From a virus, in IMG/VR virus record IMGVR_UViG_3300047387_000044, positions 1 through 24,906 of that record: a DNA stretch of 24,906 nt, one strand, 5' to 3'. Below the pieces are notes generated by a model. The model ran no database searches, was not told the DNA's origin, and worked only from the letters and a program-made list of their open reading frames with translations. Numbering within the stretch: the first letter of the stretch is position 1; the number at the start of each line of letters is the position of its first letter. This document shows positions 6,872 through 23,705 of the stretch, piece after piece. A program made the translations under genes and the position numbers.

Positions 6872-8686
6872 TTAGAATTCAATTACTAACTTGATATCTT
6901 CGATCTGGTCAGGTGCACGAGTGATTAGTCTTCTGTTCTCAACATAAATTACCTCACCTGAGTTATTTTCGATCTCAGGAGCAGCAAGTCCAGATGAGAA
7001 TGTAACGCCTAATAATGTAGAACCATATGCAGTATCTACGTTACCAGATGCAGTAGAAAGTTCTCCAGTGATTGCGTTAGAACCATTAGACTCAAATCCT
7101 CTTACTACACCAGAGTCTGTGTGTGCATCGTTTGTTTGGATGTACTTAAGAACTCCAGCAGTTGTAGAACCACTGTCTAATGTCCATGATACAACTGTAC
7201 CATATGCTGTACCACCAGTTACAGTCTGTGTAATCTTCTCGTCAACAGAGAAGTCTGCAGAAGCACCAGTAATCTTAACTGCTTTTAATCCAGATAATGT
7301 ATCAGAAGTAGAGAATGTTGTAGTACCCCAGTTAAATGGGTCTTGAATAATTCCAATTCTACGGAAGTCGTTATCTACAGGGAAGTCTCCAGAACCTTCT
7401 GAATATGTAAGACGAATGTTAGTCATAACACGCTTACCATTAAGTTCTACTTCTTGATCAGAACCATGTCCACCTTGTGGAGGTAGAACAACTTCGATAG
7501 CACCAACAGCAGAAGCACCAGTTGTTACAGCAGATGATAAACCAGCGTTAGAGAATAAGTTACCATTTCCTAATAGTACGTTACCATAAGTGTAACCTGA
7601 TCCACGTGCTTCAATTTCAGCAGATGTGATTGTACCAGCACCGTTTGTTACAAACTTAACCTTACCACCTGTTCCATCACCAACAATAGCAGTGTATAGA
7701 GTCTGTGAAGCAGGAAGACCTGATCCAGCATTCTCAATAAGTGCTACATCAATAGCACCAGAAACTGCAATACCAGCAACTGCGGTTCTACTTACGTTAG
7801 CAGGAAGAACGATTGGCATAAAGTCTGATGATAAGAACTTAAGAACATCATCAGTAGGAATAGTGTACATATACTTCCAGATGTATCCTGCACCAGTTGT
7901 CTCTGTATAAAGACCAGTTGCAGAATCATAGTTACCACCAGCAGTATATGGTTCTTCGGTTGCGTTCTGTCCTGTAGTGTTGCTAGGGTTCTCTCCGTTA
8001 TAGAGACACTTAAATACTTCGTAGTATGTGTTCATTACATAGAACTTAGCATCTGAGATGCTTGTAGCACCAGTCGCTGCTTGTTTACCAACTTGACCAC
8101 CGCCACCTGGTGTAGCAGAGTAGTCTGGTTTGAACATGTCATACTTAGGGTTAGCAACTAGATCCCAGTTGTAACGGCGGATAACTGTTCTTGCAAAAGA
8201 ATCAGTAATACGTTTGGCAGCAATTAATTCGTCGTATAGAGTAATCTTTTCTCTCTGATTATCTAGAGGAAGTGGTGGAACATCTTCAGTAGCGTAACGA
8301 TATACACCAGAGACTGCTGTAGCACCTGTGTCAGAACCGCCAGCACCACCTGTTCTACCTTTTAATGCAGATCCAAGAGGAGGAGCAGAGTTAACACCAG
8401 AACTTCCAAAAACGTCGGTTAATAATAAAGCGGTGTCATATACTGCTGCAACTGTGGCACGAAAAGCAGTCGATCCATATGTACCCACATAAACTTCATT
8501 TCCGACTACGAAAGCCGTTGAGTTCTTGGTATGTATTTCTAAATATGCCTTCCATGGTTGTGGTCTTCCCACAAAGAAATACATTCTTGATCTTTCCGAA
8601 CTCGTATCGTTGGGTCCTTCGGTTAAAGATTCTAAAAATTGTTTAGCGTTAAAAATTCTAAACTTATCAGAGATAATAGCAGCCAT
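6872..8686 (-). CDS. 8: Baseplate wedge protein gp8-like
   Basis: The product of 604 residues is the likely equivalent of T4 gp8, which joins gp7 and gp10 in the baseplate wedge. The start MAAIISDKFRIFNAKQFLESL and the SRMYFFVGRPQPW motif are typical of gp8 proteins of marine T4-like phages. A conserved block near residues 403-452 (PPQGGHGSDQEVEL...DFRRIGIIQDPFNW) fits the family as I know it. T4 gp8 is much shorter (about 334 residues); the extra length here includes Gly-rich beta-type repeats near residues 320-375 (GSGLPASQTLY, GSGYTYGNVLL). The ATG at 8686 follows AGGA with 7 nt spacing. Two perfect late promoters lie just upstream, so it probably has its own late transcript in addition to readthrough from the giant gene before it. 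Confidence 0.9.
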   Translation of the reverse strand: MAAIISDKFRIFNAKQFLESLTEGPNDTSSERSRMYFFVGRPQPWKAYLEIHTKNSTAFVVGNEVYVGTYGSTAFRATVAAVYDTALLLTDVFGSSGVNSAPPLGSALKGRTGGAGGSDTGATAVSGVYRYATEDVPPLPLDNQREKITLYDELIAAKRITDSFARTVIRRYNWDLVANPKYDMFKPDYSATPGGGGQVGKQAATGATSISDAKFYVMNTYYEVFKCLYNGENPSNTTGQNATEEPYTAGGNYDSATGLYTETTGAGYIWKYMYTIPTDDVLKFLSSDFMPIVLPANVSRTAVAGIAVSGAIDVALIENAGSGLPASQTLYTAIVGDGTGGKVKFVTNGAGTITSAEIEARGSGYTYGNVLLGNGNLFSNAGLSSAVTTGASAVGAIEVVLPPQGGHGSDQEVELNGKRVMTNIRLTYSEGSGDFPVDNDFRRIGIIQDPFNWGTTTFSTSDTLSGLKAVKITGASADFSVDEKITQTVTGGTAYGTVVSWTLDSGSTTAGVLKYIQTNDAHTDSGVVRGFESNGSNAITGELSTASGNVDTAYGSTLLGVTFSSGLAAPEIENNSGEVIYVENRRLITRAPDQIEDIKLVIEF

Positions 8687-8739: not shown

Positions 8740-8747
8740 TATTTATA
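8740..8747 (-). promoter_or_regulatory. 8: T4-type late promoter (TATAAATA), distal copy
   Basis: This is a second perfect TATAAATA on the minus strand, 12 bp upstream of the first. The TAA within it is also the stop codon of the giant gp7-position gene. Both copies sit in a short direct repeat, CGTATAAATAA. Confidence 0.75.
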
Positions 8748-11700
8748 CGATTGATATAGGTACTATCTCAGATCCAGACGCAATCTGATTATCACCATTA
8801 TGTCTAGTACAACCAGTGAAGGTATTAGCAGTCTTACCAGTATACTTAATTATACCTGTATATGTACCATTGTTATGTAAAATATACCCTGTTGTTGGGA
8901 AGTAAGTTGTATCTTGTACAACAATATTTCCACCAATAGTTCCTACTGTAGAACTAATAGCGACAGGATTTTGTATTGATGGTAATGCAAGATTGAACTT
9001 ATCTCCTGCCTTTGTGAAGGAGGAGTTTGCTCTATCTACAAAATCACCAAGAGTCAATGATGGATAGTATGTTGATATATCAGCGATTGTTAGGTTAGAT
9101 ACGTCAGCAGTTCCATCATCAAATGCTATGTACTGCCAGTTTCCTATATTAGAACCTACAGTAGTCTTTATATATGAACCGATATATTCGTTAGTTCCAA
9201 ATAGTTCGTTTCTTACTTCAATGATTGTTCCATCACGTTGAGTAACAGTATAGTTACCAAGAGCATTTTCAATCAAATCAACTTGGTTCTGATTTCTCTG
9301 TTGTATAGGATCATTAATGAACGCTGTCTCTTCATATCCATCAACTGCACCGCCAGGTGGAGGTACAATAAGAACTTCAGTTGATTCCTTAGTAATGTCT
9401 AAGTCATCAGGAGATGTTACTTGTCTGAATACTTGTCTTTCAAATCCAGAACCGACGAGTCCAATGTTAACCATTCTAACATCGCTTTCAGACTCAACTT
9501 CAACAAGACCAGCAGATATAACTGTTACATCTTCAATCTGTCTGAGGTAAGTTCCAGCAACCCAATCTTGTTCAGTTGTTCCTTGATATCCTCTAATGAT
9601 TTGATAGAATCTATCATTAATCTTCTTCTCATAGTATATAACCTCATCACCAATCATCAATCTACCACTAGGAGCAAACTTAGATGTATCAGCAATGTAA
9701 GCAATAACATCACCGATGAGGAAGTCAAGATCCAATAGTGCAGCATTCTCAAAGTAGTTGACATTGCTGATTGCATTATTAGGAATCTCAATCTGCTGAG
9801 TCTGTGTGATTACTTTAGAAACAGTAGATATAGAATTGAGAGATACAATATCTTGAACCTCTGCAGAAACAACAGTTGCTTCATAAGTAGGACCTTCAAA
9901 TACTTGAACTTCACTAGCAGGAGTAGGTCTGTTAGTATTAAGTTCTAGATAATCTCTTTGTGGATCTAATGCTCCACCAATAGAGAATACCTCTATCTCG
10001 TCAGGAGTAAATTCTCTTTCGAGAACAATCTCAGCATCACCCGCTACCTGTACTGATAGAGAACTAACACCTGTAATACCTGTAAGACCAGACTCATCAA
10101 TCTCAGTAACAACTGATAAAGCAGTCATTCCACCAGTTTCCACAAATGGATTGATAGCAACATTGATTAGAGAAACACCAACGTCTCTTTCACTTAAGAT
10201 ATCAAATCTTCTAGTTGTGATAACCTTAGGTGCTTTGGTATATCCAGAACCACCATCAAGTAGATCAACACTAATTACCTGACCCTTACTTACTAATACA
10301 TTTGCTTTAGCACCACCACCATTACCATCTAATGTCTCAAACTTAAGTACAGGAGGTGTATAATACTGATATGCAGTTGGTTGTGTAATTGGATCATAAC
10401 TACGCTGGTTCCATGTAAGAGATATTACAGATCCATTCTGAATTTCTGCAACGACAGAAAGACCTTCTCCTCTCGTGATTCCAGTATAAGTCTCAACTGA
10501 GACTGAACCAAAGATATCATCAGATGTCTGTTCGTTAGGTCTTCCATCTTTACTTGTAGTTTCAGTAGGGAGAGTTTTAATTTTTCTAAAACCTGTCTCA
10601 CCTTCTACTTTAATATTGTCTCCATTAGACAAATATACAAATGGTGCAACATATGTTTTACCAACTACTGTTCCAAACCAATCAGAGTTAGGATCTTTTA
10701 ATATATTTCTACCATCACTATCTTTCTTGAGATTTAAAATCTCATTTGTTATATCTGCATCTGTTAGTACAAAACTATTATTGTAATTTCCTTTTGATGC
10801 AAATGTATAATCTAGTCCCGACTCGATATTTGAGTTTTGAGATTTTAATTCAAATACTACAGTGTTTCCAGTTCTAATTGGGTTTGAAAGTTCACCTATT
10901 ACATTCTTAGTACCATTTGCTCTTGTTTGCCACACATGTATAGGATTACCTATCTTTTCACCCATCCATGTATAACTTAACAAAGTATCCATGTTTTGTT
11001 GGGAAGCAACAAATGAGAAAGTTCCTTGACTGAAATAAGTGTCAGGTGCAAAGTCATATATGTTTAATATTTGACCTACGTCTCTACCATAGATGTAACG
11101 CATGTCAATCTGCATATCTTTCTTGATAGAATCATGGAATGTGATATTAGGACCTGAAACAGTATACGCCTTTCCATTTACTTGTAGTACACCATCTAAG
11201 AATACATACAAACTATCTTCGGATTCAATGCTTTGAACAGTTCCATCTAATACATCAAGAATTAAGAAAGGTCCGTTTCTAACACCATCTACCAATTCAA
11301 AATCAATTGTCAATCTCTTGTAATTAGAAACACCAATACCTACAACTTTTTCTACAGCAGTTGGTTCACCAATACTCTTAGCACCTAAGTCTTGATCCCA
11401 TATAGGAGCAGTATCAAATTTAATTACGTTAGGAATAACAGTTCTATCAATCCAGTAAGCATCTTTTAATGGATAGTTTTCTGTAAACTTAGGTCTTTGT
11501 AATACTGAATTGATTGTAAGGAATAAATCTTCATCTTCTTCTGTGTTTACTTCAGTATTATCATCCCAATATAATTCAAAGTCTGTGGTCTCACCATCAA
11601 TATAATCAGGTAGACTTCTTGTTACAGACTCTTCTTTTACAACATCACTTAAATTTTCATACAGTGAATCCATTGCAGAGATGACAGTAGTGCATTCCTC

Positions 11701-14700
11701 TACAGGAAGTAAAGGATCACCAAGTATATTGTAATTAGAATATGTTACTGTACCAGTCCAATAACCAGACTTATTTTGATTAACTGGTGTCTTCTCTACA
11801 AGTCCACGCCCTTCTGTAATAATAGTCTCAGTAATATCATGGTATGTGTTAAGTGTACTCTCTACTTCTGCACATACAGGACTTAGAGAATCTACAAGAA
11901 CATTAGGATCTGTGATTGACAACTGATTTCTCATTGCCTGTATACAATTATTTTTAACTTCATTCATTATGAAAATTGTTGACTCCACAGTTCCAGTAAT
12001 TCCCTTCTGGACTTCACCTAAAGATGATGCATCGTAATACAACTCTTCACCATAAGGATAATCATTTTGTTTATAGTATGCTTGTGCATTCTCTACAATT
12101 TTAAAATTACCACCCATCTTAAGATGATAAACATACGCCTGTATCAATGGTCTCATTTGAAGAGGATAATATGGTGCTACACCAGGACCTCCACCCCAAC
12201 CTAAGTTTGGATACTGTGTTTGAGTTGCATTCAATGCTAATTGAATAATTTCTGTTTCATTCTTCTCTATCAACTCTCCTGCTTTATAGAACATACCATT
12301 GTTCAATGCACTCCAACCAAACTTAGCTTGTGTTGTACCTGAGAAAGAAAGAGGTACTGTGACAGTTGCACCAGGTGGCACAGTGAATGTGCTTCCTAAT
12401 GGAACTTGTGCAGTGCTAGTGCCAATAGTAGTTGTACTACCTGTGCCAGATACAGGAGTGGTACCAGATGGAGCACCACCGCCACCACCAGAGTTTGCAA
12501 GTGCAGCATTGTTTAATGTGACCTGTGTATCACTATCAATAGATACAATCTTAGTTCCTGTTGGATATGATTTACCAGAACTTACAAACAAACCAACAGC
12601 AAGATTCTTAGTGCTGCTGACAGTCATTGTTTTCTGACCTTGAACATATGCAATGTTTACATCAACAAAGTCCCAGTTCCTAATTGCAAGTTTTGCTAAT
12701 CTAGTTGCATACTCAAATATATCATTAGATTGTGTCTTATAATTCCTAATGTAAAGATAAGCACTACCCGAACTAAAGATTGATGCATAATCAATTGTCT
12801 TGATATTTCCACCAAATCTAATATCATGTTGATAAGCATCTAAGATTGCTCTGATGTTTGCCTCATAATCATCTTGTTTGGTACTCCAGTCTAATGATGG
12901 GTGAGTTGCTTTACCATATCCAATAGTCTCATCAATAATAAACTGTACATTTCTTTCAATTTGATTTGCAGAATCTATCCATGTACCACCACGTTGGAAT
13001 ATATTTCTTAATTTTTTAAAGTATTTTGTATTGTATTGTTCATCTTTAAATTTAAAGACCTTACCATAGAATGTAACGCCAACAAGAGGTGGTTGTGAGA
13101 ATGTAATATTTCCAGAATTTATAGTATATGCAATGCCAGGTTCTTGTATAACTCCATCAAGAGTCACAATCATATTTTTTAACTTATTATCTGCTAAGTT
13201 AAATGCCACACCATCTTTCTTAGTTGTAAATGCAGTAGTTCCTTGTAATCTACCATCATTATCAAATGCTCCATCAAATACTGCACCTAATGTAAACTCA
13301 AATGCCTCTGCTTCGTTAAAATTAAACTCACTTGTTGCAGCAGTACCAAATCCTTTACGTATTCTTTGGTTCTCAACTTTCTGTACAGTCTGTGTAACAA
13401 TTCTACTTGAGTTCTCAACTGTAATCTTATTCTTCTCAGGATCCCAAAGTTGTACAACGGTGAAGTGTGTTGCATCAGGTGTACGATCTTTAGGCAACTC
13501 AACTAATGAACCTTGATCTCTTGTTGCAAAATTAGCAGTTGCTTCAATATCAACTTGACCAAATAATTTGAAACCAGCAGGGTGTGTAGTTGCTTTGATA
13601 AGATCACGCCATTGCTCAATAGATGTTCCTGACTTAATAACATAAGAATAATCTTGATAGAATAAACTGTCTATTATCTTTTGATTTTGTACACCTAGTT
13701 TTCCTTTGTCTGATTGATAGAAACCTAAGTTATCATAAAAACTAGAAATCTCTTCACTAAATGTAGTTACAAATATAGATTGTACTATACCAGATACTGG
13801 CATAATTGTAGATTCTATAGAAACATCTTCACGAACTATACCAGTAGAATTTTCTACCTTAAGTAAATTAGATCCAAATCTCCAATCTACAACTGTTGCT
13901 CTGAATACTTCTACACCATTAATTTTTTGAACTACTTGTTCACCAATTCTAAAGTTGCCATTATAATTTTTCAATGCAAGAACATAGTTAGATCGGAATG
14001 TAGATGACACAGTTTCATCTAAATGGAATGCTCCACCGTTAGATGTTATTCTTACACTCTGTGGTACACCTATAGATGTACTCTCAACAAATGCTTCTAC
14101 CTCACCTTCTACAATAAGAATCTCAGGTGCATATGTATAACCTCTGCCTGGTTTTTCTACAGTAATAGATGTGACTTTACCTTCTCTTACAAGAACATTG
14201 AATTTTACATCTGATCCATCAGACTTAGTTATTACAATTTTAGGATTTACATAGTTAGATCCTTCATTTGTAATGTCAACTCCTGTAATAGTTTGTGATG
14301 CTGCATCAAATGTTACAGTTGCTGCTGCTCTGTAAGACTCTGCAGGATCAACACCAGTGATAACTGGAACTTTCTTATAGTTTAATCCTAAATTTATAAT
14401 TCCGACTGTATTAATCTTACCGATAGCGAACTGACCATTAGTAGTATAAGAAATGGATCCAGAACCATCCCAAAGAGGAGTACTGGTAACATCATAAACA
14501 AAACGATTTGGTGTAACATAATTGATAGTCTTAGTTCCTTGTAGAGGATCAGTTACAAGTTTAAAGTATGATCCTCCAGAGTTTACTACATTCTTATTAT
14601 CAAAGTAATAGAAGTTTGTAAAATCTGTTCCAGTTTTTGTTTGATATGTATTAGTAGTAAGTCTAGAACCAAATCCAAACTTAACATCTGTAAATGCACC

Positions 14701-17700
14701 AGCATTACCAGGTAATATAGTTGATTCAATTTTCTCTACTGTAATTAAATTGTAATTACTACTTGGACTAATATCAAAGTAAGTCCCAGTGAGACTAGAA
14801 TGAGACGTATCAAACTTATACTTGTAAAATTCTTGTAGATCTATGTTAGGGTTAGGTACAAATGTACTATTATCTTCTGAGAATTCAAATTTGTATACTA
14901 CATCTTCAGCAGATCTAACAGCAACCAATCTTTGTGGTGTGCTAGTATCAAAGAAACTAGAACTCAATACAACTTTATTTGCATTAGTGTTTAATGTTGC
15001 ATAATCATATACAACAACTATCTTATGTGTTATAGGATCATAGGATTGTATGTAACCTGATAGTGAACCACTAAAGATCTGGTAATTATTTGTAAAGTTA
15101 TATTGAGCATTGTAAAGAGATACTTCCTGTCCATCAAAATGATCTACATCTGTAGTTCCCTCTTGTCCTCTAGTTACAGAAAGATCGTTTCCATTAATAC
15201 CAGCAATCTTTAAAACTTCTTGACCTATTTGTATAAAGTCATCTGTTGCAAATCCTTGTGCGTTATCTACAGTAACTTTTGTTGCACCAACAGCAACACC
15301 TACATGACCAACATAGATTGTAAACCTTGATGTTGATTGTGATGCACCAGATCTTACTAGATCCTCATCTGCAACTCCAAGATAATCTCCTCTTGCATAT
15401 CCTACACCAGCATCTTGTATCTGTATACCAGAAACTACCCCTGCAGAAGATACAGTAAAGGTAGCAGTTGCTCCAGATCCCGATCCACCAGTAAGAGCAA
15501 TGCTAGTGTAAGTGCCAGCTGTGTAATCAGCACCACCATTAAGGATTTCATATCTTCCTATTCCTGTAAAATTAATATTGGTCTTTGCATTAGGAGGTAT
15601 TAGAACTGCCTCTTGATATAATCTCTTTCTAATGTAGTATGTTTTTGTTTTAGTTGCATCATCAGGGTTGATGTCAATAGTTACATTGTCTCCAATTCCC
15701 AATCCATGATTGGATGTGGTTTCTATTAGTGCTACACTTTGATTTACTTCAAATGGTTCTAATCCATCACTCAATGATGTGAGTGTTACTATTCTAGTTC
15801 CAGATGTATTGAACAAATCATTAGACTGTATGAAATATGTGTTATCAGTAGTCCATGTACCTGTCAAAACCTTGATCTGGACTACGTTTTGGGCAGACGT
15901 TCCTTCTAATACTTCGGCAGTAGCAATAGGAGCATTTACACCATCAGTCAAACTTAATATTGCACCTTTAGTGTAAGAACTTCTTTGATCTAATAAAATA
16001 TCAAATGTCTTAATAGCAGCAGAGAATGTACCAGTATTATTGAATGTACCAGTTACATTTTTCAATACAATTGTACTATCATTCTTAACTGTTCCAACAA
16101 TAGTTCCAGATGCACCAGACGTCGGTTGTGATAACGTATCATCTGCAAATAAGTATGCACTTTGAATGATTGTTAGTTTAACAACCTTGTTTTCTTTTGA
16201 TTGTAAGTAAGATACATCTTTACCTTTTACAGAACTAACGATTGCTTCTGCTTCTGAACCTTGTGTTCCTGTATTGTCAAAATATAACTGCGAGTTGATA
16301 GAGAAGTTAGCAGATGTATCTAATACACTAACACTCTCAACATTACCTTGTTTTACTTCTTCTATTTGTGCAATAAAACCATCACCATTACGTGGCATTC
16401 CTGCTTGGTAAAAACGTCTTGCTTTTTTAGGAATGTCGTTCTGGTTAATATCAGAATTGTAATTACTATCTACAGGAAGAGAATAAAAATTCTCTCCTAT
16501 AATGTATGGATACTGCGGTACTTGATTGCTATCAATAGTAATGAAATAAGCATAAGTTCCTTGCGGAAATTCTGGGGTGGTGCAAAATCTTCCATTGTTT
16601 TCATCTAGTGTGCCACTTTTGTGGGTATAGGTATAGTCATTGACAAAAGTTCCGATAGGATAGGTTGTCAAGTCAGGTCCTTCAGAACGATTTCCATTAA
16701 TAGAATAACTAGATGTCATTCTAGTAATAGATGACGTAGAATCTAAAGGATCTTGATAACCAAACGCACCATAGATTGGATTACCATCATAAGCAAAACC
16801 AATAATAGGTGAGTGTGATTTAGATGCTGGTTCTGTTCCAGCACTGTTTAGGTTATCACTAAGAGAAACACGAAGTGCTTTCGGGTTTGCAGCATAACCA
16901 TAACCATACTCCAATACGTTATTGCTGTTTCCAAATACATAACCATTCTCTGTGTCTAATTTAGTTTCTAATTTTTTATATCTATTAAAATTCCATTCTT
17001 TAAGAAGAGGTATACCAGTTGCACCACTGCCCACTGGAACTATTTCAACTATTACAGTATTTTGATTATAGAAGTTACCCTCTGCAATCTTATTAAATCC
17101 AGTAATCTGTCCATCAGTATTAACAACTGCTTCAAACTCAGCAAACCTACCTCTACCAGCATTATCTCTAATTACAACTTGTGGAGGTGAAGAATAGAAC
17201 TCACCAGCATTATCAAGTATAAGACTTGTGACCTTACCACCAGTTACTACAGCACGAACAGCAGCATTTCTACCAGATGTAATTAATACGTCTGGAGTTC
17301 TAGGAAATACATCAGTAGTATCCACACTTATGCTTTCTACAACTTGTCCTGCTAATATTGCTCTTGCTTTATTAGGTACTTGATCAATCAATACAAATGG
17401 TGGTCTTACATATCCAGTTCCACGAAGATCAACCTTGATTTGTTCTAACTTACCATATCTAATACTTTCTGCATCTTTATAACCATAAAAAGGAACACCA
17501 TTTAATCCAATACCAATATCTCTCTTAGGTGTAGGATATGTTTCTGTAGTTCTAGTTGCTTGTTTTCTAATAATACGAAGAAGTTTCTGATCCAATACTG
17601 TTTGTGTCACAGTAGAACCATCTAAAATTTTATGTGATGGGAAACTAGAACTAGCAATATAATAATACTGATCATCTGCAAGTATAGCAGATACATTTGT

Positions 17701-19773
17701 TGGTACTTGATCTAATGATGTAGCAACTGCAGATAATGTAGGAACATTAACTGCTGCACCAGTTCCTAATATCCATCTAGTCTGATTTGTTCCTACGTTT
17801 ACAATCTTAGAATCAGAAGTCTCAAAACCAGGATTAGATACTTGTATCTTATCTCCTACAAAAGAGTATGGTTGTGGATCTGATGGTTGTAAATTATAAA
17901 CAATACCCATCGTCAACAACGTGACACCAGATCCTGCTATTGTAACAGGTTTGTATACTGGTGTACCAACATCGTGCTGCACAGCAGTCTGTGCTAATCT
18001 ATTGTCAATAATAAATTGACCTACAGTCTTTTCACTAAATGTAATTGTCTCATCACCAATCAATACTGATCCTGTATTATCCCAACCAGTAGTAGAGAAT
18101 ACATCAATCCTATCTCCTTTAGACTTAGTGCCTATTAGCACTTTCTCAAGTTGAGTCTTAGTTGAGACACCAAATGTACCATTAACTGTCTCTGGTGCTA
18201 AAACTATATTATAGATTACCTCATCATCTCTAGTTCCATCTGCATATACATTGTCTACAACAGCATCTGCATAGTCATACTCTTCTGTATCAGATTGAAC
18301 TATTTTCTTTCCTACTAAACTTTTTACATCACCAGATATAACTTTACACTTAAGTGCATATACGTTTATCCAATCTGCATTAGATGCTTTATATGTAAAA
18401 TCTCTTGGTTTGTATACCTCAGGTTTTACAATTTTTCTTGGTCTTGTATTAGCAACCAACTCCATGTAACCTTCATCACCATCAAGACCTGACATGTAAC
18501 GATGATAAGCACAATAATAGTAAATCTTATTAGACTCATCAACATTCATCATGAATTCTGGTTGGAATTCATTATCGTAGTTTGTCTTGACACCAAGAAC
18601 AGGTTTGCTGTTGTAATATTGTTGACCACCAAGTAATGTACCTTCTCTAGTGGTACTAAACTTCATAGGATGACCATCTGGATGGATAGGCATCGGTAAG
18701 TTAGAAGGGTCAGATTGATTCCATATAATTTGCCAGTTTTGGAAGATCCTTATTCCTTCTGGTGCAAAATAATATTTGCCATATTCAAAATCTCCAAATA
18801 ACTGTGGCAATTTACCAAAGTTGATGTAGAAAATACCATTAGGGAATGTATATACTGTACTAGCAGTAAATGTTGATCCTGTAGTGCCAGTAACACTATC
18901 TCCAAGAGAGAAGGTGCTGGATACTTGTCTTAAATATACTCTTGTAATTACGTTCTGATCATTTCTAACAATCTTAGCAATCTCTCCACTAGCAGTAGTG
19001 GTTTTGATTCTATCACCAACTAAAAATTGACCATTTGGACTTGTAACATCTATGGCAATATTATCAAACTCAGATTTTATAAACCACTCAAACTGTGCTA
19101 AGTTAGTACGATCAAGAGGATCAAAGTCCTTATCAATAATACTATTGAAAACAAACTTAATAGAACTATCAGTTCCTTTCGCTTTATAGAAATTCTGTAT
19201 GTTCTTTATTAAGGTTCTTTTATCAACACTACCTCTAAGATATTTCTCAGGGAATGAACCTAGATATTGTTTCTCAAAATTCTTTACTAATGCATAAAGA
19301 AAAAGATTACTAATATTGTAAACTGTTTGACCAGCAGCATGTGCTGTAGCAGTTGTACTTACAAAATTACTTTTACTGTATAGATCACCAATTTTTGTAT
19401 TACCACTAACACCTCTAGAACATCCACTTAAGGTTGTATCAGTTCTAGTTGCGTAAAATATTATCTCATCATCTATTCTAATATATCCGTCTTTTTCTGG
19501 AAAACTTCTTGCATCTTGTAGTACAATTGTGTCGCTACTATTAGTGATACTAACATCCAAAGTATCGTGTTGTCTAAGTAAGTTCTTTTCATAGTAATCA
19601 ATGTCTGCATATTTTTGAATATTATTAATAATGTCTAGAGTACCACCCTGTACCTCCTGTGCTTCATAATACTTCGTTACAAACTTACTAAAAAGTTCGT
19701 ATTCTGTACTAATGAACTCAGGAAGCTGTGTCTCTATCAGAGTAGATATTCTCTTTGTTTTTACAGCAACCAT
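8743..19773 (-). CDS. Giant baseplate wedge/virion structural protein in the gene 7 position (3676 aa)
   Basis: This 11-kb gene lies exactly where T4 has gene 7 (1032 residues in T4), four bases after gene 6 and just before gene 8, so a wedge role is inferred from position. Residues 158-214 carry a KNFEKQYL...DKRTLIKNIQNFYKAKGTDSSIKFVF segment reminiscent of the short KGT motif of P2 gpI/gp7-type baseplate proteins. Residues 2032-2087 carry FYQDYSYVIKSG...HPAGFKLFG, which I associate with large cyanophage baseplate proteins. Other parts are a cupredoxin-like segment (about 315-440), a YHYH-like domain (about 945-1095), clusters of G-x-G-Y...P beta repeats (780-915, 1411-1471, 1788-1918, 3148-3190), five copies of a G-x-I-x-I-G-D/E-E-I/V-I module at both ends and in the middle, and a Gly/Ser/Thr-rich linker (about 2422-2488). 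DGVIQ and DGVLQ hairpin motifs occur near 2215 and 2853. The start is MVAVKTKRIST. No frameshift is seen. Confidence 0.85.
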   Translation of the reverse strand: MVAVKTKRISTLIETQLPEFISTEYELFSKFVTKYYEAQEVQGGTLDIINNIQKYADIDYYEKNLLRQHDTLDVSITNSSDTIVLQDARSFPEKDGYIRIDDEIIFYATRTDTTLSGCSRGVSGNTKIGDLYSKSNFVSTTATAHAAGQTVYNISNLFLYALVKNFEKQYLGSFPEKYLRGSVDKRTLIKNIQNFYKAKGTDSSIKFVFNSIIDKDFDPLDRTNLAQFEWFIKSEFDNIAIDVTSPNGQFLVGDRIKTTTASGEIAKIVRNDQNVITRVYLRQVSSTFSLGDSVTGTTGSTFTASTVYTFPNGIFYINFGKLPQLFGDFEYGKYYFAPEGIRIFQNWQIIWNQSDPSNLPMPIHPDGHPMKFSTTREGTLLGGQQYYNSKPVLGVKTNYDNEFQPEFMMNVDESNKIYYYCAYHRYMSGLDGDEGYMELVANTRPRKIVKPEVYKPRDFTYKASNADWINVYALKCKVISGDVKSLVGKKIVQSDTEEYDYADAVVDNVYADGTRDDEVIYNIVLAPETVNGTFGVSTKTQLEKVLIGTKSKGDRIDVFSTTGWDNTGSVLIGDETITFSEKTVGQFIIDNRLAQTAVQHDVGTPVYKPVTIAGSGVTLLTMGIVYNLQPSDPQPYSFVGDKIQVSNPGFETSDSKIVNVGTNQTRWILGTGAAVNVPTLSAVATSLDQVPTNVSAILADDQYYYIASSSFPSHKILDGSTVTQTVLDQKLLRIIRKQATRTTETYPTPKRDIGIGLNGVPFYGYKDAESIRYGKLEQIKVDLRGTGYVRPPFVLIDQVPNKARAILAGQVVESISVDTTDVFPRTPDVLITSGRNAAVRAVVTGGKVTSLILDNAGEFYSSPPQVVIRDNAGRGRFAEFEAVVNTDGQITGFNKIAEGNFYNQNTVIVEIVPVGSGATGIPLLKEWNFNRYKKLETKLDTENGYVFGNSNNVLEYGYGYAANPKALRVSLSDNLNSAGTEPASKSHSPIIGFAYDGNPIYGAFGYQDPLDSTSSITRMTSSYSINGNRSEGPDLTTYPIGTFVNDYTYTHKSGTLDENNGRFCTTPEFPQGTYAYFITIDSNQVPQYPYIIGENFYSLPVDSNYNSDINQNDIPKKARRFYQAGMPRNGDGFIAQIEEVKQGNVESVSVLDTSANFSINSQLYFDNTGTQGSEAEAIVSSVKGKDVSYLQSKENKVVKLTIIQSAYLFADDTLSQPTSGASGTIVGTVKNDSTIVLKNVTGTFNNTGTFSAAIKTFDILLDQRSSYTKGAILSLTDGVNAPIATAEVLEGTSAQNVVQIKVLTGTWTTDNTYFIQSNDLFNTSGTRIVTLTSLSDGLEPFEVNQSVALIETTSNHGLGIGDNVTIDINPDDATKTKTYYIRKRLYQEAVLIPPNAKTNINFTGIGRYEILNGGADYTAGTYTSIALTGGSGSGATATFTVSSAGVVSGIQIQDAGVGYARGDYLGVADEDLVRSGASQSTSRFTIYVGHVGVAVGATKVTVDNAQGFATDDFIQIGQEVLKIAGINGNDLSVTRGQEGTTDVDHFDGQEVSLYNAQYNFTNNYQIFSGSLSGYIQSYDPITHKIVVVYDYATLNTNANKVVLSSSFFDTSTPQRLVAVRSAEDVVYKFEFSEDNSTFVPNPNIDLQEFYKYKFDTSHSSLTGTYFDISPSSNYNLITVEKIESTILPGNAGAFTDVKFGFGSRLTTNTYQTKTGTDFTNFYYFDNKNVVNSGGSYFKLVTDPLQGTKTINYVTPNRFVYDVTSTPLWDGSGSISYTTNGQFAIGKINTVGIINLGLNYKKVPVITGVDPAESYRAAATVTFDAASQTITGVDITNEGSNYVNPKIVITKSDGSDVKFNVLVREGKVTSITVEKPGRGYTYAPEILIVEGEVEAFVESTSIGVPQSVRITSNGGAFHLDETVSSTFRSNYVLALKNYNGNFRIGEQVVQKINGVEVFRATVVDWRFGSNLLKVENSTGIVREDVSIESTIMPVSGIVQSIFVTTFSEEISSFYDNLGFYQSDKGKLGVQNQKIIDSLFYQDYSYVIKSGTSIEQWRDLIKATTHPAGFKLFGQVDIEATANFATRDQGSLVELPKDRTPDATHFTVVQLWDPEKNKITVENSSRIVTQTVQKVENQRIRKGFGTAATSEFNFNEAEAFEFTLGAVFDGAFDNDGRLQGTTAFTTKKDGVAFNLADNKLKNMIVTLDGVIQEPGIAYTINSGNITFSQPPLVGVTFYGKVFKFKDEQYNTKYFKKLRNIFQRGGTWIDSANQIERNVQFIIDETIGYGKATHPSLDWSTKQDDYEANIRAILDAYQHDIRFGGNIKTIDYASIFSSGSAYLYIRNYKTQSNDIFEYATRLAKLAIRNWDFVDVNIAYVQGQKTMTVSSTKNLAVGLFVSSGKSYPTGTKIVSIDSDTQVTLNNAALANSGGGGGAPSGTTPVSGTGSTTTIGTSTAQVPLGSTFTVPPGATVTVPLSFSGTTQAKFGWSALNNGMFYKAGELIEKNETEIIQLALNATQTQYPNLGWGGGPGVAPYYPLQMRPLIQAYVYHLKMGGNFKIVENAQAYYKQNDYPYGEELYYDASSLGEVQKGITGTVESTIFIMNEVKNNCIQAMRNQLSITDPNVLVDSLSPVCAEVESTLNTYHDITETIITEGRGLVEKTPVNQNKSGYWTGTVTYSNYNILGDPLLPVEECTTVISAMDSLYENLSDVVKEESVTRSLPDYIDGETTDFELYWDDNTEVNTEEDEDLFLTINSVLQRPKFTENYPLKDAYWIDRTVIPNVIKFDTAPIWDQDLGAKSIGEPTAVEKVVGIGVSNYKRLTIDFELVDGVRNGPFLILDVLDGTVQSIESEDSLYVFLDGVLQVNGKAYTVSGPNITFHDSIKKDMQIDMRYIYGRDVGQILNIYDFAPDTYFSQGTFSFVASQQNMDTLLSYTWMGEKIGNPIHVWQTRANGTKNVIGELSNPIRTGNTVVFELKSQNSNIESGLDYTFASKGNYNNSFVLTDADITNEILNLKKDSDGRNILKDPNSDWFGTVVGKTYVAPFVYLSNGDNIKVEGETGFRKIKTLPTETTSKDGRPNEQTSDDIFGSVSVETYTGITRGEGLSVVAEIQNGSVISLTWNQRSYDPITQPTAYQYYTPPVLKFETLDGNGGGAKANVLVSKGQVISVDLLDGGSGYTKAPKVITTRRFDILSERDVGVSLINVAINPFVETGGMTALSVVTEIDESGLTGITGVSSLSVQVAGDAEIVLEREFTPDEIEVFSIGGALDPQRDYLELNTNRPTPASEVQVFEGPTYEATVVSAEVQDIVSLNSISTVSKVITQTQQIEIPNNAISNVNYFENAALLDLDFLIGDVIAYIADTSKFAPSGRLMIGDEVIYYEKKINDRFYQIIRGYQGTTEQDWVAGTYLRQIEDVTVISAGLVEVESESDVRMVNIGLVGSGFERQVFRQVTSPDDLDITKESTEVLIVPPPGGAVDGYEETAFINDPIQQRNQNQVDLIENALGNYTVTQRDGTIIEVRNELFGTNEYIGSYIKTTVGSNIGNWQYIAFDDGTADVSNLTIADISTYYPSLTLGDFVDRANSSFTKAGDKFNLALPSIQNPVAISSTVGTIGGNIVVQDTTYFPTTGYILHNNGTYTGIIKYTGKTANTFTGCTRHNGDNQIASGSEIVPISIV
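12310..12510 (-). other. Low-complexity Gly/Ser/Thr/Pro linker inside the giant gp7-position protein
   Basis: Residues about 2422-2488 read as a five-glycine run followed by Thr/Ser/Pro/Val-rich sequence (PVSGTGSTTTIGTSTAQVP, then GSTFTVPPGATVTVPLSFSG). It lies between two folded-looking parts, one ending in an MTVSSTKNLAVGLFVSSG segment and one starting KFGWSALNNG. It is likely a flexible hinge or an insertion. Confidence 0.6.
16489..16941 (-). other. YHYH-like domain within the giant gp7-position protein
   Basis: Residues about 945-1095 contain SHSPIIGFAYDGNPIYG (H987) and, further on, NGRFCTTPEFPQGTYAYF and PQYPYIIGENFY. Together these match the YHYH family pattern as I know it, whose function is unknown. 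The tetrad that names the family would lie near residues 956-959 and here reads Y-G-Y-G, so both histidines appear to be lost. Confidence 0.7.
17030..17430 (-). repeat. Tandem G-x-G-Y/F-Y...P beta-type protein repeats
   Basis: Residues about 780-915 hold at least three divergent copies of a short motif: GTGYVRPPFVLI, GEFYSSPPQVVI and GNFYNQNTVIVEI, each after a strand such as KVTSLILDNA. They directly precede the YHYH-like domain. The similarity is at the protein level, and I see no strong DNA repeat. Confidence 0.6.
18454..18831 (-). other. Cupredoxin-like segment with type 1 copper ligand pattern
   Basis: Residues about 315-440 of the giant protein contain IHPDGHPMKFSTTREGT (H364, H368) and, some 50 residues on, IYYYCAYHRYMSG (C421, H424, M427). 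In cupredoxins a type 1 copper site uses a His from an early loop and then Cys-x2-His with a Met soon after; C-x2-H-x2-M is the amicyanin spacing. The GHP-MKFSTT then YYYC-x2-H-x2-M pattern recurs, to my knowledge, in structural proteins of marine phages. Copper binding is inferred and has not been shown. Confidence 0.55.
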
Positions 19774-19777
19774 TTAC

Positions 19778-21574
19778 TTACTCTTTATATGCAGTGAAGG
19801 ATGAATTAGGAACGTCAACGTCAAGGTATACCTCACGCATTGCCTTAATGTCGTTTGATAGTGGTTTTACTCTTAGTGAAATACGATTATCAAAGAAACT
19901 ACCTTTAATAATTGTCAAAGCATACATCTTCAACTCACCTTTTACATAATCTATGTCGCCAATATCACTGTCTAGAACAACTTTCTCACCAGTTACGCTA
20001 TCTAGTCTATATAGGACAATTTTCTTATTTCTATCTTCAACATAGACATCAAAATTAGGATATTCTGTTACTCTAAAACCAGTAGATGATAAGACTGGAT
20101 CGTCACAGTCTTCATCAAAGGCATTCTGGAAACATACCTCATAATAGAAGGTAGAATTTAACTGAGGATAGAAGTCTTTTCTCATCATGAGACTAGTGAG
20201 ATTAGAATTGATACTAACATCAGCATCATCTATAACACCCACAAACTTACTATACCTAAACTTACCATTAAATTTCTCAGTATCACTTTCATTAATATAA
20301 CCTTGTATAGAAGTGATTACGCTATCTCTAATATTAGAAGGAGTCTGATCTGTCATACCTCCGTTATAATAGATCTTACTTGTCATTTCAACAAATAGAA
20401 TAGAAGGATCTACTATCTGTGGTTCTACAGATGCAACAACATATTTTTTAAGATCAGCAATGATCTGTGATTTAGTCAACGATGTAAGGTAACTAGCATC
20501 AGTTGGTTTCAATACAATGAATACTTTTCCATATTCTGGTGGTTCTTGATCCTCTCCACCAAATATGATAATATCACTTGTTGCTGGATATACTTTTCTT
20601 ACAATTGTTTCGTAGTCGTTAGCGGTCACTGCACGGTCTTGTGTGCCATATGCTTTTGGAGCAGTGTATTTTATCTTAGCAGTTGTTTCTATCTCTTCAC
20701 CGCCCGATGCAGCAACGCTTGATACAATTGTTGTTGTAAACGCATTAGGAGAAACTCCAAATTCGTTTTCTATCACACCAGAAAATACAAATGCCTTAAC
20801 ACCATTACTTACAGGACCTGATGTTGTTACATATGATACATCAATACGTGCATTGTTCTCTAGTTTCTTACCTAGAACACCATCACCCATTAAAATTTCA
20901 TACCTACCGTCCTCAATTTCATCTAAGAAGAAGACTTTTGATGCACCATCAACTCCTAATATGTTATCAGCAAGTAAATATGGTTCATTAAAAGATCCAC
21001 CAGTAGGATATACAGTGACTGAGACTGTATTAGTATCAATGTTAGGGTTATCTAATATAAATCTTTGACTCTTAGATGCAGTGTTTATTACAAATTCGTT
21101 TGTTAATAGTGTTCCTTCTCTAATTGGTACGTTACTAAATGTTGCAACACCATTTATTACTTGTGCCTTTACATCACTTGTAACAATATAATTGTAAATG
21201 ACATTATCATAGTTACTAATAAATCCTGTTCCTTGTTTTAAATTTAATTCTTTATCAGTTGTTGCATTAGTATAGGTAACAGTAAATGAAATATATGCTG
21301 TAGGAGATGTTGCACTCTTTGGTCTATATCCTAATTGCTTTGCTAGTGCTACTACGTTGTCTCTTAGCGTTGCTGAATCAAGGAACAGTTCATTGACTAC
21401 CATGTTCGTATTGAACGCTGTATAGTAGGTATTATAAGCAAGAGTGTCTATCAGAGTTGCTAGTGCAGACCCTTCAAAATCATAATCAGTAAAATCATTC
21501 TGACTCCTCAAATATTCTTTGAGTTGAGTTTTGATATTATCAAAATCTAAATTGGCAACCTGAGTATAAGGCAT
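19778..21574 (-). CDS. 6: Baseplate wedge protein gp6-like (gpJ family)
   Basis: This 598-residue protein is the likely gp6 of the baseplate wedge, which in T4 dimerises to form the inner ring of the baseplate. The N-terminal block at residues 36-85 (ALATLIDTLAYNTYY then ELFLDSATLRDNVVALAKQLGYRP) is the gp6/gpJ signature. Residues about 291-355 carry APKAYGTQDRAVTANDYETIV, the 'aP..R.vT..Dy' motif of baseplate J-like proteins. The length is close to T4 gp6 (660 residues). The ATG at 21574 overlaps the gp25 stop as TAATG and has no clear Shine-Dalgarno sequence, so translation is probably coupled to gene 25. The C-terminus lies four bases before the giant gene. Confidence 0.92.
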   Translation of the reverse strand: MPYTQVANLDFDNIKTQLKEYLRSQNDFTDYDFEGSALATLIDTLAYNTYYTAFNTNMVVNELFLDSATLRDNVVALAKQLGYRPKSATSPTAYISFTVTYTNATTDKELNLKQGTGFISNYDNVIYNYIVTSDVKAQVINGVATFSNVPIREGTLLTNEFVINTASKSQRFILDNPNIDTNTVSVTVYPTGGSFNEPYLLADNILGVDGASKVFFLDEIEDGRYEILMGDGVLGKKLENNARIDVSYVTTSGPVSNGVKAFVFSGVIENEFGVSPNAFTTTIVSSVAASGGEEIETTAKIKYTAPKAYGTQDRAVTANDYETIVRKVYPATSDIIIFGGEDQEPPEYGKVFIVLKPTDASYLTSLTKSQIIADLKKYVVASVEPQIVDPSILFVEMTSKIYYNGGMTDQTPSNIRDSVITSIQGYINESDTEKFNGKFRYSKFVGVIDDADVSINSNLTSLMMRKDFYPQLNSTFYYEVCFQNAFDEDCDDPVLSSTGFRVTEYPNFDVYVEDRNKKIVLYRLDSVTGEKVVLDSDIGDIDYVKGELKMYALTIIKGSFFDNRISLRVKPLSNDIKAMREVYLDVDVPNSSFTAYKE

Positions 21575-21966
21575 TATCGTGTACGCTCTAGAAATATATC
21601 TATCCCAACTGCTCTGTCTTCTCTACCTAAGATCATATACTCTAATTGCACTTCATATCCATTCTCGTCAGTTCGTGGATAGCAGTTAAGTCCTTGAATT
21701 GATATTCTAGGTTCGTACCTATTGAGAGTTTCTTTAATTTCTTTTTTAATTAATCCAGCAGTACCATAATCTAATGGTTCAAACAATAGATCCTGTAGAC
21801 CACTTCCTATTTCTGGTTGGAATGGTCTTTCACCTCTTCTAGTAAGTAATAATCCTTTTATTGATTGTGCAACAGCAGCCTTATCCTTCACTGTTACCAA
21901 ATCGTTAGTAACAGGATGTTTTTTGAATGTAATACTCAAATCTTTGAAGGTTGAGACTTCTGGCAT
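21574..21966 (-). CDS. 25: Baseplate wedge protein gp25-like
   Basis: This 130-residue protein matches the GPW/gp25 family in length (T4 gp25 has 132 residues) and motifs. RRGERPFQPEIGSGLQDLLFE (in residues 43-63) and the EPR core motif in NRYEPRISI (E85-P86-R87) are the family hallmarks. In T4, gp25 sits at the base of the sheath on the gp6-gp7 wedge and templates the first sheath ring. It follows a late promoter (21990-21997) and overlaps gene 6 by one base. No strong ribosome-binding site is visible before the ATG. Confidence 0.95.
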   Translation of the reverse strand: MPEVSTFKDLSITFKKHPVTNDLVTVKDKAAVAQSIKGLLLTRRGERPFQPEIGSGLQDLLFEPLDYGTAGLIKKEIKETLNRYEPRISIQGLNCYPRTDENGYEVQLEYMILGREDRAVGIDIFLERTR

Positions 21967-21997: not shown

Positions 21998-22172
21998 CAT
22001 CTTTTCTGAACTTAGTGCACTCGTCAAGGAATTCCTTCTTTCTCTTCATCTCAAACAATTCTCTTTCGTCATTCTTTTCAATTTTGTCTATCCATTCTTG
22101 TGCATCGTACTCAGAGATGAGTTTCTTCCCACTTTTTATAAATTCCTCAGATTTGTCTACTTTAATTACCAT
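21993..22172 (-). CDS. Small charged protein of unknown function (59 aa)
   Basis: The start chosen is ATG at 22172, giving MVIKVDKSEEFIKSGKK. It has a strong AAAGGAG seven bases upstream, whereas an in-frame ATG at 22208 has none. The product is rich in Lys and Glu and looks helical throughout (DAQEWIDKIEKNDERELFEMKRKKEFLDE); no family is recognised. It overlaps the 218-aa gene by 11 nt, and its stop lies inside the gene 25 late promoter. Confidence 0.75.
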   Translation of the reverse strand: MVIKVDKSEEFIKSGKKLISEYDAQEWIDKIEKNDERELFEMKRKKEFLDECTKFRKDG

Positions 22173-22818
22173 TTGTTTTCTCCTTTGGTGTTTCCCAGAA
22201 ATAATCATCGGTATCTCCTAACCGTCCCCACTCAGTCCCATTCTCGACTTGATACTCTATGGTAGAAACCTTAAAGTCTGGTGTCTTCGGTTCTTGAGGG
22301 GTGATAGAGAGGTCATACAAACGCATTCTATTATTAGGATACAATGCATACTGTCCATTCTCTAGTTGGATACAATTATGACTCTTATGCTCTTGTGGCA
22401 CTTCACTTACATTATTATCTATCACATCAGGGTTCGCATGGTAGTTATCAAGAGTAAAGATATACTGACCTTTCATCAGACCATGGTCTCTTGTCCGTAT
22501 CTCCGCATCCATAGAAGATACGAAACCTTTATTGATTGCCATCACACCATAGTCCATACAATTCCAAAATTGCAGATTCTCTAGACTCATATCGGGCGTC
22601 GGCGTTTTCGGTGCTCGGAGAAAGGCACTTATAGGAAGTTTATCATACATCGCACCATACTCAGGTAAGTAAGTCTCAAAATAAAAAGCACGACCAGGTA
22701 TACTCTTACAAGCAACCCAGACGCCCTCGACAAACTCACCAAATCCACTTTGATGGTCAGTTAAATATTCTTTTCGTACCCACACCTTCTCAGAAGGCAA
22801 ATTACAAATCAAATTCAT
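22162..22818 (-). CDS. Conserved T4-like marine phage protein of unknown function (218 aa)
   Basis: The product begins MNLICNLPSEKVWVRKEYLTD and contains GEFVEGVWVACKSIPGRAFYFE and LPEYGAMYDKLPISAF. I recall similar proteins near the tail cluster of cyanophages but know no function. It is soluble-looking, with many aromatic residues and a late Gln/Glu/Pro-rich part (ITPQEPKTPDF). No catalytic motif is visible. The ATG overlaps the preceding zinc-ribbon gene's stop as ATGA and has only a weak GAGG 13 bases upstream, so translation is likely coupled. Its 3' end carries the ribosome-binding site of the next gene. Confidence 0.8.
   Translation of the reverse strand: MNLICNLPSEKVWVRKEYLTDHQSGFGEFVEGVWVACKSIPGRAFYFETYLPEYGAMYDKLPISAFLRAPKTPTPDMSLENLQFWNCMDYGVMAINKGFVSSMDAEIRTRDHGLMKGQYIFTLDNYHANPDVIDNNVSEVPQEHKSHNCIQLENGQYALYPNNRMRLYDLSITPQEPKTPDFKVSTIEYQVENGTEWGRLGDTDDYFWETPKEKTNGN
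22180..22186 (-). promoter_or_regulatory. Strong Shine-Dalgarno deciding the start of the 59-aa gene
   Basis: AAAGGAG on the minus strand lies seven bases before ATG 22172, inside the last codons of the 218-aa gene. It supports the short form of the downstream protein. Confidence 0.75.
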
Positions 22819-23185: not shown

Positions 23186-23328
23186 TTTCCTTGTCCTCTA
23201 TATCTCTTCCTTGCTTTATTTCTACTAGTCGCAGAATACTTTGTATGTGATCCTGTACCCTGTCTTGTTTTCTTTGGTGTTGCTTCTATAGTCTGAGATA
23301 CACCAAAACCACCTTTTGCTTTCGCCAT
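23182..23328 (-). CDS. Very basic 48-aa protein of unknown function
   Basis: This ORF runs from ATG 23328 and encodes MAKAKGGFGVSQTIEATPKK, ending in NKARKRYRGQGK. I count 13 Lys/Arg against one acidic residue in 48, with no hydrophobic core, so it looks disordered and suited to RNA, DNA or acidic-partner binding. GGAGG lies 11 nt upstream. It overlaps the PAAR-like gene by one base (TAATG) and the membrane-protein gene by four (GTGA). I recall similar short ORFs in cyanophages but know no function. Confidence 0.75.
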   Translation of the reverse strand: MAKAKGGFGVSQTIEATPKKTRQGTGSHTKYSATSRNKARKRYRGQGK

Positions 23329-23705
23329 TAAATATTCTGTCCTCCAGAAGTTCCTATCTGTATTGTACTACTTAACCATGGTCCTGTCAAGGGTCTAGGT
23401 GTACTAATTCCATCCAGTGTTGCATTATCACCTTGAACAGCGGGTAGTCTCCCATTAATCATAACTGTCGTATTGACAGCAGGAGTAATAATCCGTTGAC
23501 CTGTGCTAGTACACTGTGGTATACCTCTCCTAATGCCTGGCACTATACTTGGTAAACTTGTTGCATCATATATCGGTACAGGTCTCTGACCAACCTTCAC
23601 ATTCGGTGACATGAACGGAGTACCATCTAATGTCTGTGCAGGATAATCACAGAACGGTCCTACCGACTCTGTATCTATTGTCTCCTTTTTAATTAGAAAT
23701 GCCAT
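23328..23705 (-). CDS. PAAR-like protein, candidate tail-spike tip (125 aa)
   Basis: The product has no signal or membrane segment. Three short Gly-rich beta-hairpin-like repeats are visible: PNVKVGQRPVPIYD (34-47), TTVMINGRLPAVQGDNATLDG (79-99) and STIQIGTSG (113-121). The 'V.ING...A..GD' repeat is characteristic of PAAR proteins, which sharpen the tip of the central spike; T4 gp5.4 plays this part. Two cysteines (C19, C65) are present but I cannot assign the metal ligands of a PAAR tip. AGGAG six bases upstream supports the ATG. Location in a run leading into the baseplate genes fits the role. The call rests on motif appearance only. Confidence 0.6.
   Translation of the reverse strand: MAFLIKKETIDTESVGPFCDYPAQTLDGTPFMSPNVKVGQRPVPIYDATSLPSIVPGIRRGIPQCTSTGQRIITPAVNTTVMINGRLPAVQGDNATLDGISTPRPLTGPWLSSTIQIGTSGGQNI

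Follow-up and report, generated by a model that had tools for sequence, protein, structure and literature searches.

The virus record IMGVR_UViG_3300047387_000044, from a marine cyanophage-like virus and analysed here as a stretch of 24,906 bases (the window), encodes on its minus strand a giant baseplate wedge protein that carries a predicted cupredoxin-like domain with the ligand set of a type 1 copper site. An earlier reading of the DNA, made from the sequence alone, had drawn attention to this site in an interval covering residues 315–440 of the protein. Both motifs on which it relied are where it placed them: GHPMKF corresponds to residues 367–372 and YYYCAYHRYM to residues 418–427 of the open reading frame at 8743–19773 (−), with H368, C421, H424 and M427 as the four ligand residues. 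Its attribution to a baseplate protein is likewise supported, as the copper-site segment is matched by PHROG 708 (“baseplate wedge subunit”) with an expectation value (E) of 4e-47 and the genes on the minus strand run in the order gp25, gp6, giant protein, gp8, DUF4815 protein. Since the gene lies between gp6 and gp8, the protein occupies the position of T4 gene 7 and, together with the wedge-family match, this identifies it as a T4-like wedge protein. The features of the protein and of its domain are as follows.

8743..19773 (−): giant baseplate wedge protein of 3676 residues in the place of T4 gene 7, with gp6 and gp8 on either side, carrying the cupredoxin-like domain
18457..18846 (−): cupredoxin-like domain, residues 310–439, delimited by hidden Markov model (HMM) boundaries and the AlphaFold2 model
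18670..18672 (−): H368, first predicted copper ligand
18511..18513 (−): C421, predicted thiolate ligand and sole cysteine of the domain
18502..18504 (−): H424, predicted ligand
18493..18495 (−): M427, predicted axial ligand (lost in S-RIM4)
18742..18807 (−): extra stretch of the baseplate version, residues about 323–344, gapped in the compact form of the domain according to the alignments

Ligands, fold and relatives of the domain

The spacing C-x2-H-x2-M is that of amicyanin, and it is present in the window domain as the sequence-only reading had claimed. The ligands follow the order His…Cys-His-Met, with the cysteine ending the penultimate strand and the methionine preceding the last one, and the domain shares both this order and the β-sandwich with PF00127 proteins, rusticyanin and amicyanin. 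When the residues of the whole giant protein were shuffled 2000 times, the pattern H-x20-70-C-x2-H-x2-M never occurred (0/2000) and the looser pattern H-x20-70-C-x2-4-H-x2-4-M occurred in 0.05% of the shuffles; these figures and the conservation of the columns described below rule out a chance co-occurrence of the four ligands. The giant protein has eight cysteines in total. Within the domain, 49 of 49 baseplate copies and 63 of 64 compact copies contain a single cysteine, which excludes a disulfide role for C421.

AlphaFold2 models the window domain as a confident β-sandwich (predicted local distance difference test score, pLDDT, 91.7; predicted template modelling score, pTM, 0.86), in line with the suggested fold, and gives similar values for a compact relative that is devoid of the extra stretch (pLDDT 92.8, pTM 0.87). 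In the compact model the cysteine ends strand 96–100, the ligand loop follows, and the methionine stands just before the last strand (107–113), as in blue-copper proteins. Its eight best matches in the PDB are all rusticyanin (probability 1.00, E 0.005–0.01), followed by a multicopper oxidase (E 0.02). Both models thus have the expected Greek-key β-sandwich, the PDB match of the window domain itself being the weaker one. When solved structures were searched by sequence, the window domain, its profile and the whole protein alike gave only chance or antibody matches. The antibody matches stem from a shared YYC pattern, and an immunoglobulin reading was rejected because it leaves the conserved histidines and methionine unexplained.

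The segment matches 217 cultured phage records at E 1e-3 or better, nearly all of them cyanophages, as well as many IMG/VR loci. Ranked by conservation over 236 distinct site-spanning copies (an effective number of 69 at 80% identity), the ligand columns H, C, H and M take ranks 1–4 of all columns; they are the only columns at 100% where aligned, the next one reaching 98%, and the C-x2-H-x2-M spacing is kept in 239 of 240 copies. The case for conservation rests on sets that were fetched mainly via stretches other than the ligand residues. In one such IMG/VR set all 27 copies with an aligned site have the four ligands, as do 76 of 76 copies from viral contigs (fetched with six patterns, one of which includes C and H) and 15 of 16 copies from cultured phages. 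The exception is the baseplate copy of Cyanophage S-RIM4 (L058), in which H, C and H are kept and a three-residue gap removes the methionine. It is the only spanning copy found with a changed methionine and, judged by its sequence, a natural axial-ligand variant. The ligands are therefore the most conserved columns among the homologues, as the sequence-only reading would have it.

The relationship to known cupredoxins was approached with profiles. An HMM built from compact viral and bacterial copies, with the window sequence excluded, finds the window domain at E 2e-12. Profile comparison joins the baseplate set to the compact set at 99.2% and the compact set to PF00127 cupredoxins at 77% (E 2e-5), the PF00127 proteins coming from genomes in which the compact domain is present as well. 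At the level of sequence, a chain of homology thus leads from the window domain through the compact family to plastocyanin and azurin. Of all Pfam families, PF00127 is also the one that the compact set hits most often, with weak matches in 16 of 64 members. One of them, a protein from Woeseiaceae (L352), exceeds the PF00127 cut-off of 21.2 bits as an isolated domain (24.8 bits) and stays just under it as a full protein (20.4 bits). Apart from this marginal match, the family members tested are not named by Pfam or NCBIfam; none of the phage versions tested has a Pfam match, and the window domain does not match PF00127 and so falls short of its curated cut-off. The window domain is a cupredoxin relative rather than a member of PF00127 and, very probably, a true cupredoxin of a kind that Pfam and NCBIfam miss in phages.

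Spread, exchange and the ligand-free copy

Viral contigs abound in the compact form, with at least 600 rows in the scan. Cultured cyanophages, pelagiphages and Methylophilales phages have it too, for the most part in proteins with a tail fibre or structural annotation, and among the PHROGs that the compact set matches are those of tail fibres, of the gp10-type connector and of wedge proteins. In marine bacterial genome sets the domain is found in proteins with a lipoprotein-like start (e.g., L347, L308, L320, L352) and in others that contain cadherin, RTX or immunoglobulin domains. One contig labelled SAR11 has the domain behind a T7-type tail fibre N-terminus and is, for that reason, probably of phage origin. 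Sequence comparison accordingly delineates a large and mostly unannotated family of exchangeable cupredoxin modules, shared between tail and baseplate proteins of marine viruses and lipoprotein-like or adhesin-like proteins of bacteria, and defining it as a domain family would annotate many proteins.

Two observations concern particular members. Proteins with a lipobox-like start and a C-x2-H-x2-M domain were seen in SAR86, Woeseiaceae and other marine bacterial genomes, and they are candidates for new blue-copper lipoproteins. In addition, two virus loci (L136, open reading frame at about 3590–4324, and L140) encode proteins of about 245 residues with the cupredoxin domain at the end; the L136 protein starts with a zinc-ribbon-like CxxC…CxxC stretch.

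Among the closest known counterparts of the window version are the cyanophage wedge proteins of PHROG 708/T4-GC399, such as those of Syn19 and S-SM1, which have the same domain (47% identity over about 255 residues) and whose gene also adjoins gp8. Unlike the window protein with its 3676 residues, they are about 1300–1400 residues long and contain a second, ligand-free copy of the domain. The same wedge protein can also do without the domain, as the following feature illustrates.

18427..19119 (−): inserted module, residues about 219–449 (231 residues), missing in S-WAM2 and S-RSM4, with flanks that align on both sides

The proteins of S-WAM2 and S-RSM4 align to window residues 1–218 (76–79% identity) and from residue 450 onward (56–60%), and residues 219–449 are cleanly missing. 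For this reason the module appears from the alignments to be exchangeable and dispensable for a working baseplate. A necessity for baseplate assembly is ruled out by these two phages, and the proposal that the metal stabilises the structure loses ground with it: a need of this kind for the stability of the baseplate is unlikely when S-WAM2 and S-RSM4 lack precisely this module.

The second copy lies near residues 560–690 of the Syn19-type wedge proteins (e.g., L161, L048, L145). Its framework is kept, with RGKTYIFNQDDSSN followed by LLISTT-DGWH. In place of the YYYCxxH of the first copy it reads LYxFxY, so that the cysteine is usually replaced by phenylalanine; there is no methionine, and the first histidine is variable and mostly lost. 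Because the framework is retained in spite of these changes, the fold can apparently persist in the absence of the metal residues; when these are lost, C, H and M go as a set. In two loci (L225 and L237) a copy at about 540–670 has all four ligands. Profile searches of the giant protein of the window found no second ligand-bearing copy, only a marginal fragment of the domain at residues 1641–1699 (E 0.0017). The ligand-free copy and the S-RIM4 variant represent ready-made natural controls.

The second copy is also an argument for a purely structural or relic fold, i.e., an immunoglobulin-like or cupredoxin sandwich that has lost metal binding and serves as a spacer, an option already raised by the sequence-only reading. 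The cyanophage copy looks exactly so, immunoglobulin folds are among the PDB matches of the window domain, and relatives manage without the module. The copy in the window, however, has the full ligand set. A metal-free spacer would have no reason to keep these ligands as the four best-conserved columns of so diverse a family, and the ligand-free copy displays what relaxed constraint looks like in this domain. The idea of a relic therefore suits the second cyanophage copy, and it is improbable for the domain considered here.

Possible roles of the predicted copper site

The explanation that we prefer, with a probability of about 0.62 for the whole, is that residues 310–439 form a genuine cupredoxin domain in which H368-C421-H424-M427 make up a type 1 ligand set, that the domain belongs to an exchangeable family, and that it acts as a copper-pinned surface module. 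The fold, the identity and spacing of the ligands, their extreme conservation and the single cysteine follow from sequence and structure prediction, and copper binding is strongly implied by the same kind of data. According to the proposed mechanism, the virion protein would fold inside the host cell, its site preformed but still empty. Free copper is scarce in the cytoplasm, and copper would therefore probably be taken up after lysis. The bound metal would then pin the C-terminal ligand loop to the sandwich, giving a rigid surface on the outer baseplate that could contact partners on the host surface or in the tail fibres. Electron transfer would not be needed.

Several points weigh against this explanation. 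The first histidine is followed by proline (HP), whereas asparagine or serine (HN/HS) is usual in small blue-copper proteins, from which the window domain also differs in its location inside a giant virion protein and in about 20 extra residues. His-Pro at the first ligand is found at the type 1 site of multicopper oxidases (cupredoxin domain 3; a copper oxidase stretch in 6vox, a weak match with E 1.9), yet the window domain has neither their type 2/3 histidine cluster nor their multidomain architecture. A Foldseek search of the PDB with the model of the window domain gave no significant match; its top rows include purple cupredoxin (5fc9) and AcoP, and the cupredoxin matches stand at ranks 2, 3, 7 and 13 (E 0.2–0.34) amid immunoglobulin folds. 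Compared directly, the profiles of the baseplate set and of PF00127-type cupredoxins give only a weak match (10.6%), which was not relied on; the link to PF00127 therefore runs through the compact relatives. Furthermore, part of the loci were gathered with patterns that contain the ligands, and the alignments A2 and A4 were filtered for HCHM. Finally, the surface role is deduced from the context in which the domain occurs.

The sequence-only reading regarded a metal site in a baseplate as unexpected. That view needs revision, as iron in phage tail fibres is already known (PMC11705849 and work cited there). The iron-binding HxH tail fibres of T4 (gp37) and alterophage R22Y resemble the present case in placing a metal site in the adsorption apparatus (PMC11705849), and differ in their fold, paired histidine ligands and metal. 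A cupredoxin gene in cyanophages is not new either, since petE encodes plastocyanin there, as a separate soluble protein (PMC3037559). No description of cupredoxins in phage virions was found in the open-licence literature; the fold and the site are known, and in the papers searched there was no description of the baseplate location, of how large the family is or of the ligand-free copy paired with it.

By analogy with the iron and siderophore receptors proposed for tail fibres, the copper-loaded domain could be a Trojan horse, a bait for host copper uptake or for a copper protein of the host surface. This idea fits the strict conservation of the ligands, the presence of the domain in both tail fibres and baseplate proteins, the fact that the hosts in the cultured set are marine throughout, and the iron case already published (PMC11705849), and presenting copper to the host surface is a possible role. 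It is harder to reconcile with phages of very different hosts and with bacterial proteins that have the same domain and no apparent phage function, and no host copper receptor has been identified; we consider a bait improbable.

A further alternative keeps the metal and changes its identity: zinc, or iron as in T4 gp37, would serve as a structural staple in the virion. Cysteine, two histidines and methionine can bind zinc in cupredoxins. Tail iron is known (PMC11705849), and the same protein carries a YHYH domain with a predicted zinc site. The invariant axial methionine, for which S-RIM4 provides the only change found, and the C-x2-H-x2-M spacing are nevertheless hallmarks of type 1 copper, and we leave another metal only a slim chance. 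Type 1 sites are redox active by nature, but a role as redox sensor or electron carrier, by which the switching of the baseplate at the host surface would be triggered or timed, is very improbable, given that no redox partner is known, that relatives whose baseplates must still fire lack the module, and that the family includes lipoprotein-like and adhesin-like bacterial proteins; electron transfer by the domain is unlikely in general.

Virions are seldom counted among copper proteins. If the copper-pinned cupredoxin domain proposed above does bind copper, type 1 copper sites are part of the attachment machinery of many marine T4-like phages and of numerous uncultured viruses, which would bear on adsorption, on stability in sunlit water and on how copper is held in seawater. 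A still broader view, that widespread unrecognised copper-binding domains make ocean virions copper ligands and that the bound copper aids host attachment as a counterpart of the proposed iron Trojan horse, is unlikely.

The giant protein and its gene neighbourhood

Other features of the giant protein and its surroundings are listed below.

16516..16995 (−): YHYH domain of the giant protein, residues 927–1086 (Pfam PF14240, E 9e-32)
21574..21966 (−): baseplate wedge gp25 (context)
19778..21574 (−): baseplate wedge gp6 (context)
6872..8686 (−): baseplate wedge gp8 (context; PF09215, E 6e-12)

Most of the 3676-residue protein belongs to PHROG 4406. T4 gp7 has been reported as missing from cyano- and pelagimyophages, whose operon contains unidentified structural proteins with a YHYH domain (PMC7029224). 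Zinc binding has been predicted for this domain (PMC7824862), and the giant protein may thus hold two metal sites, one in the YHYH and one in the cupredoxin-like domain. The closest relatives of the window gp6 are cyanophage proteins, with Synechococcus phage S-WAM2 at the top (79.8%).

Two smaller genes of the window deserve mention. The 218-residue protein encoded at 22162–22818 (−) is labelled “ferredoxin” by PHROG 3704; Pfam returns nothing for it and a ferredoxin-like cysteine cluster was not seen, so the label looks wrong. At 23328–23705 (−) lies a gene for a 125-residue protein that belongs to a PHROG of unknown function and, by eye, resembles a PAAR-type spike tip.

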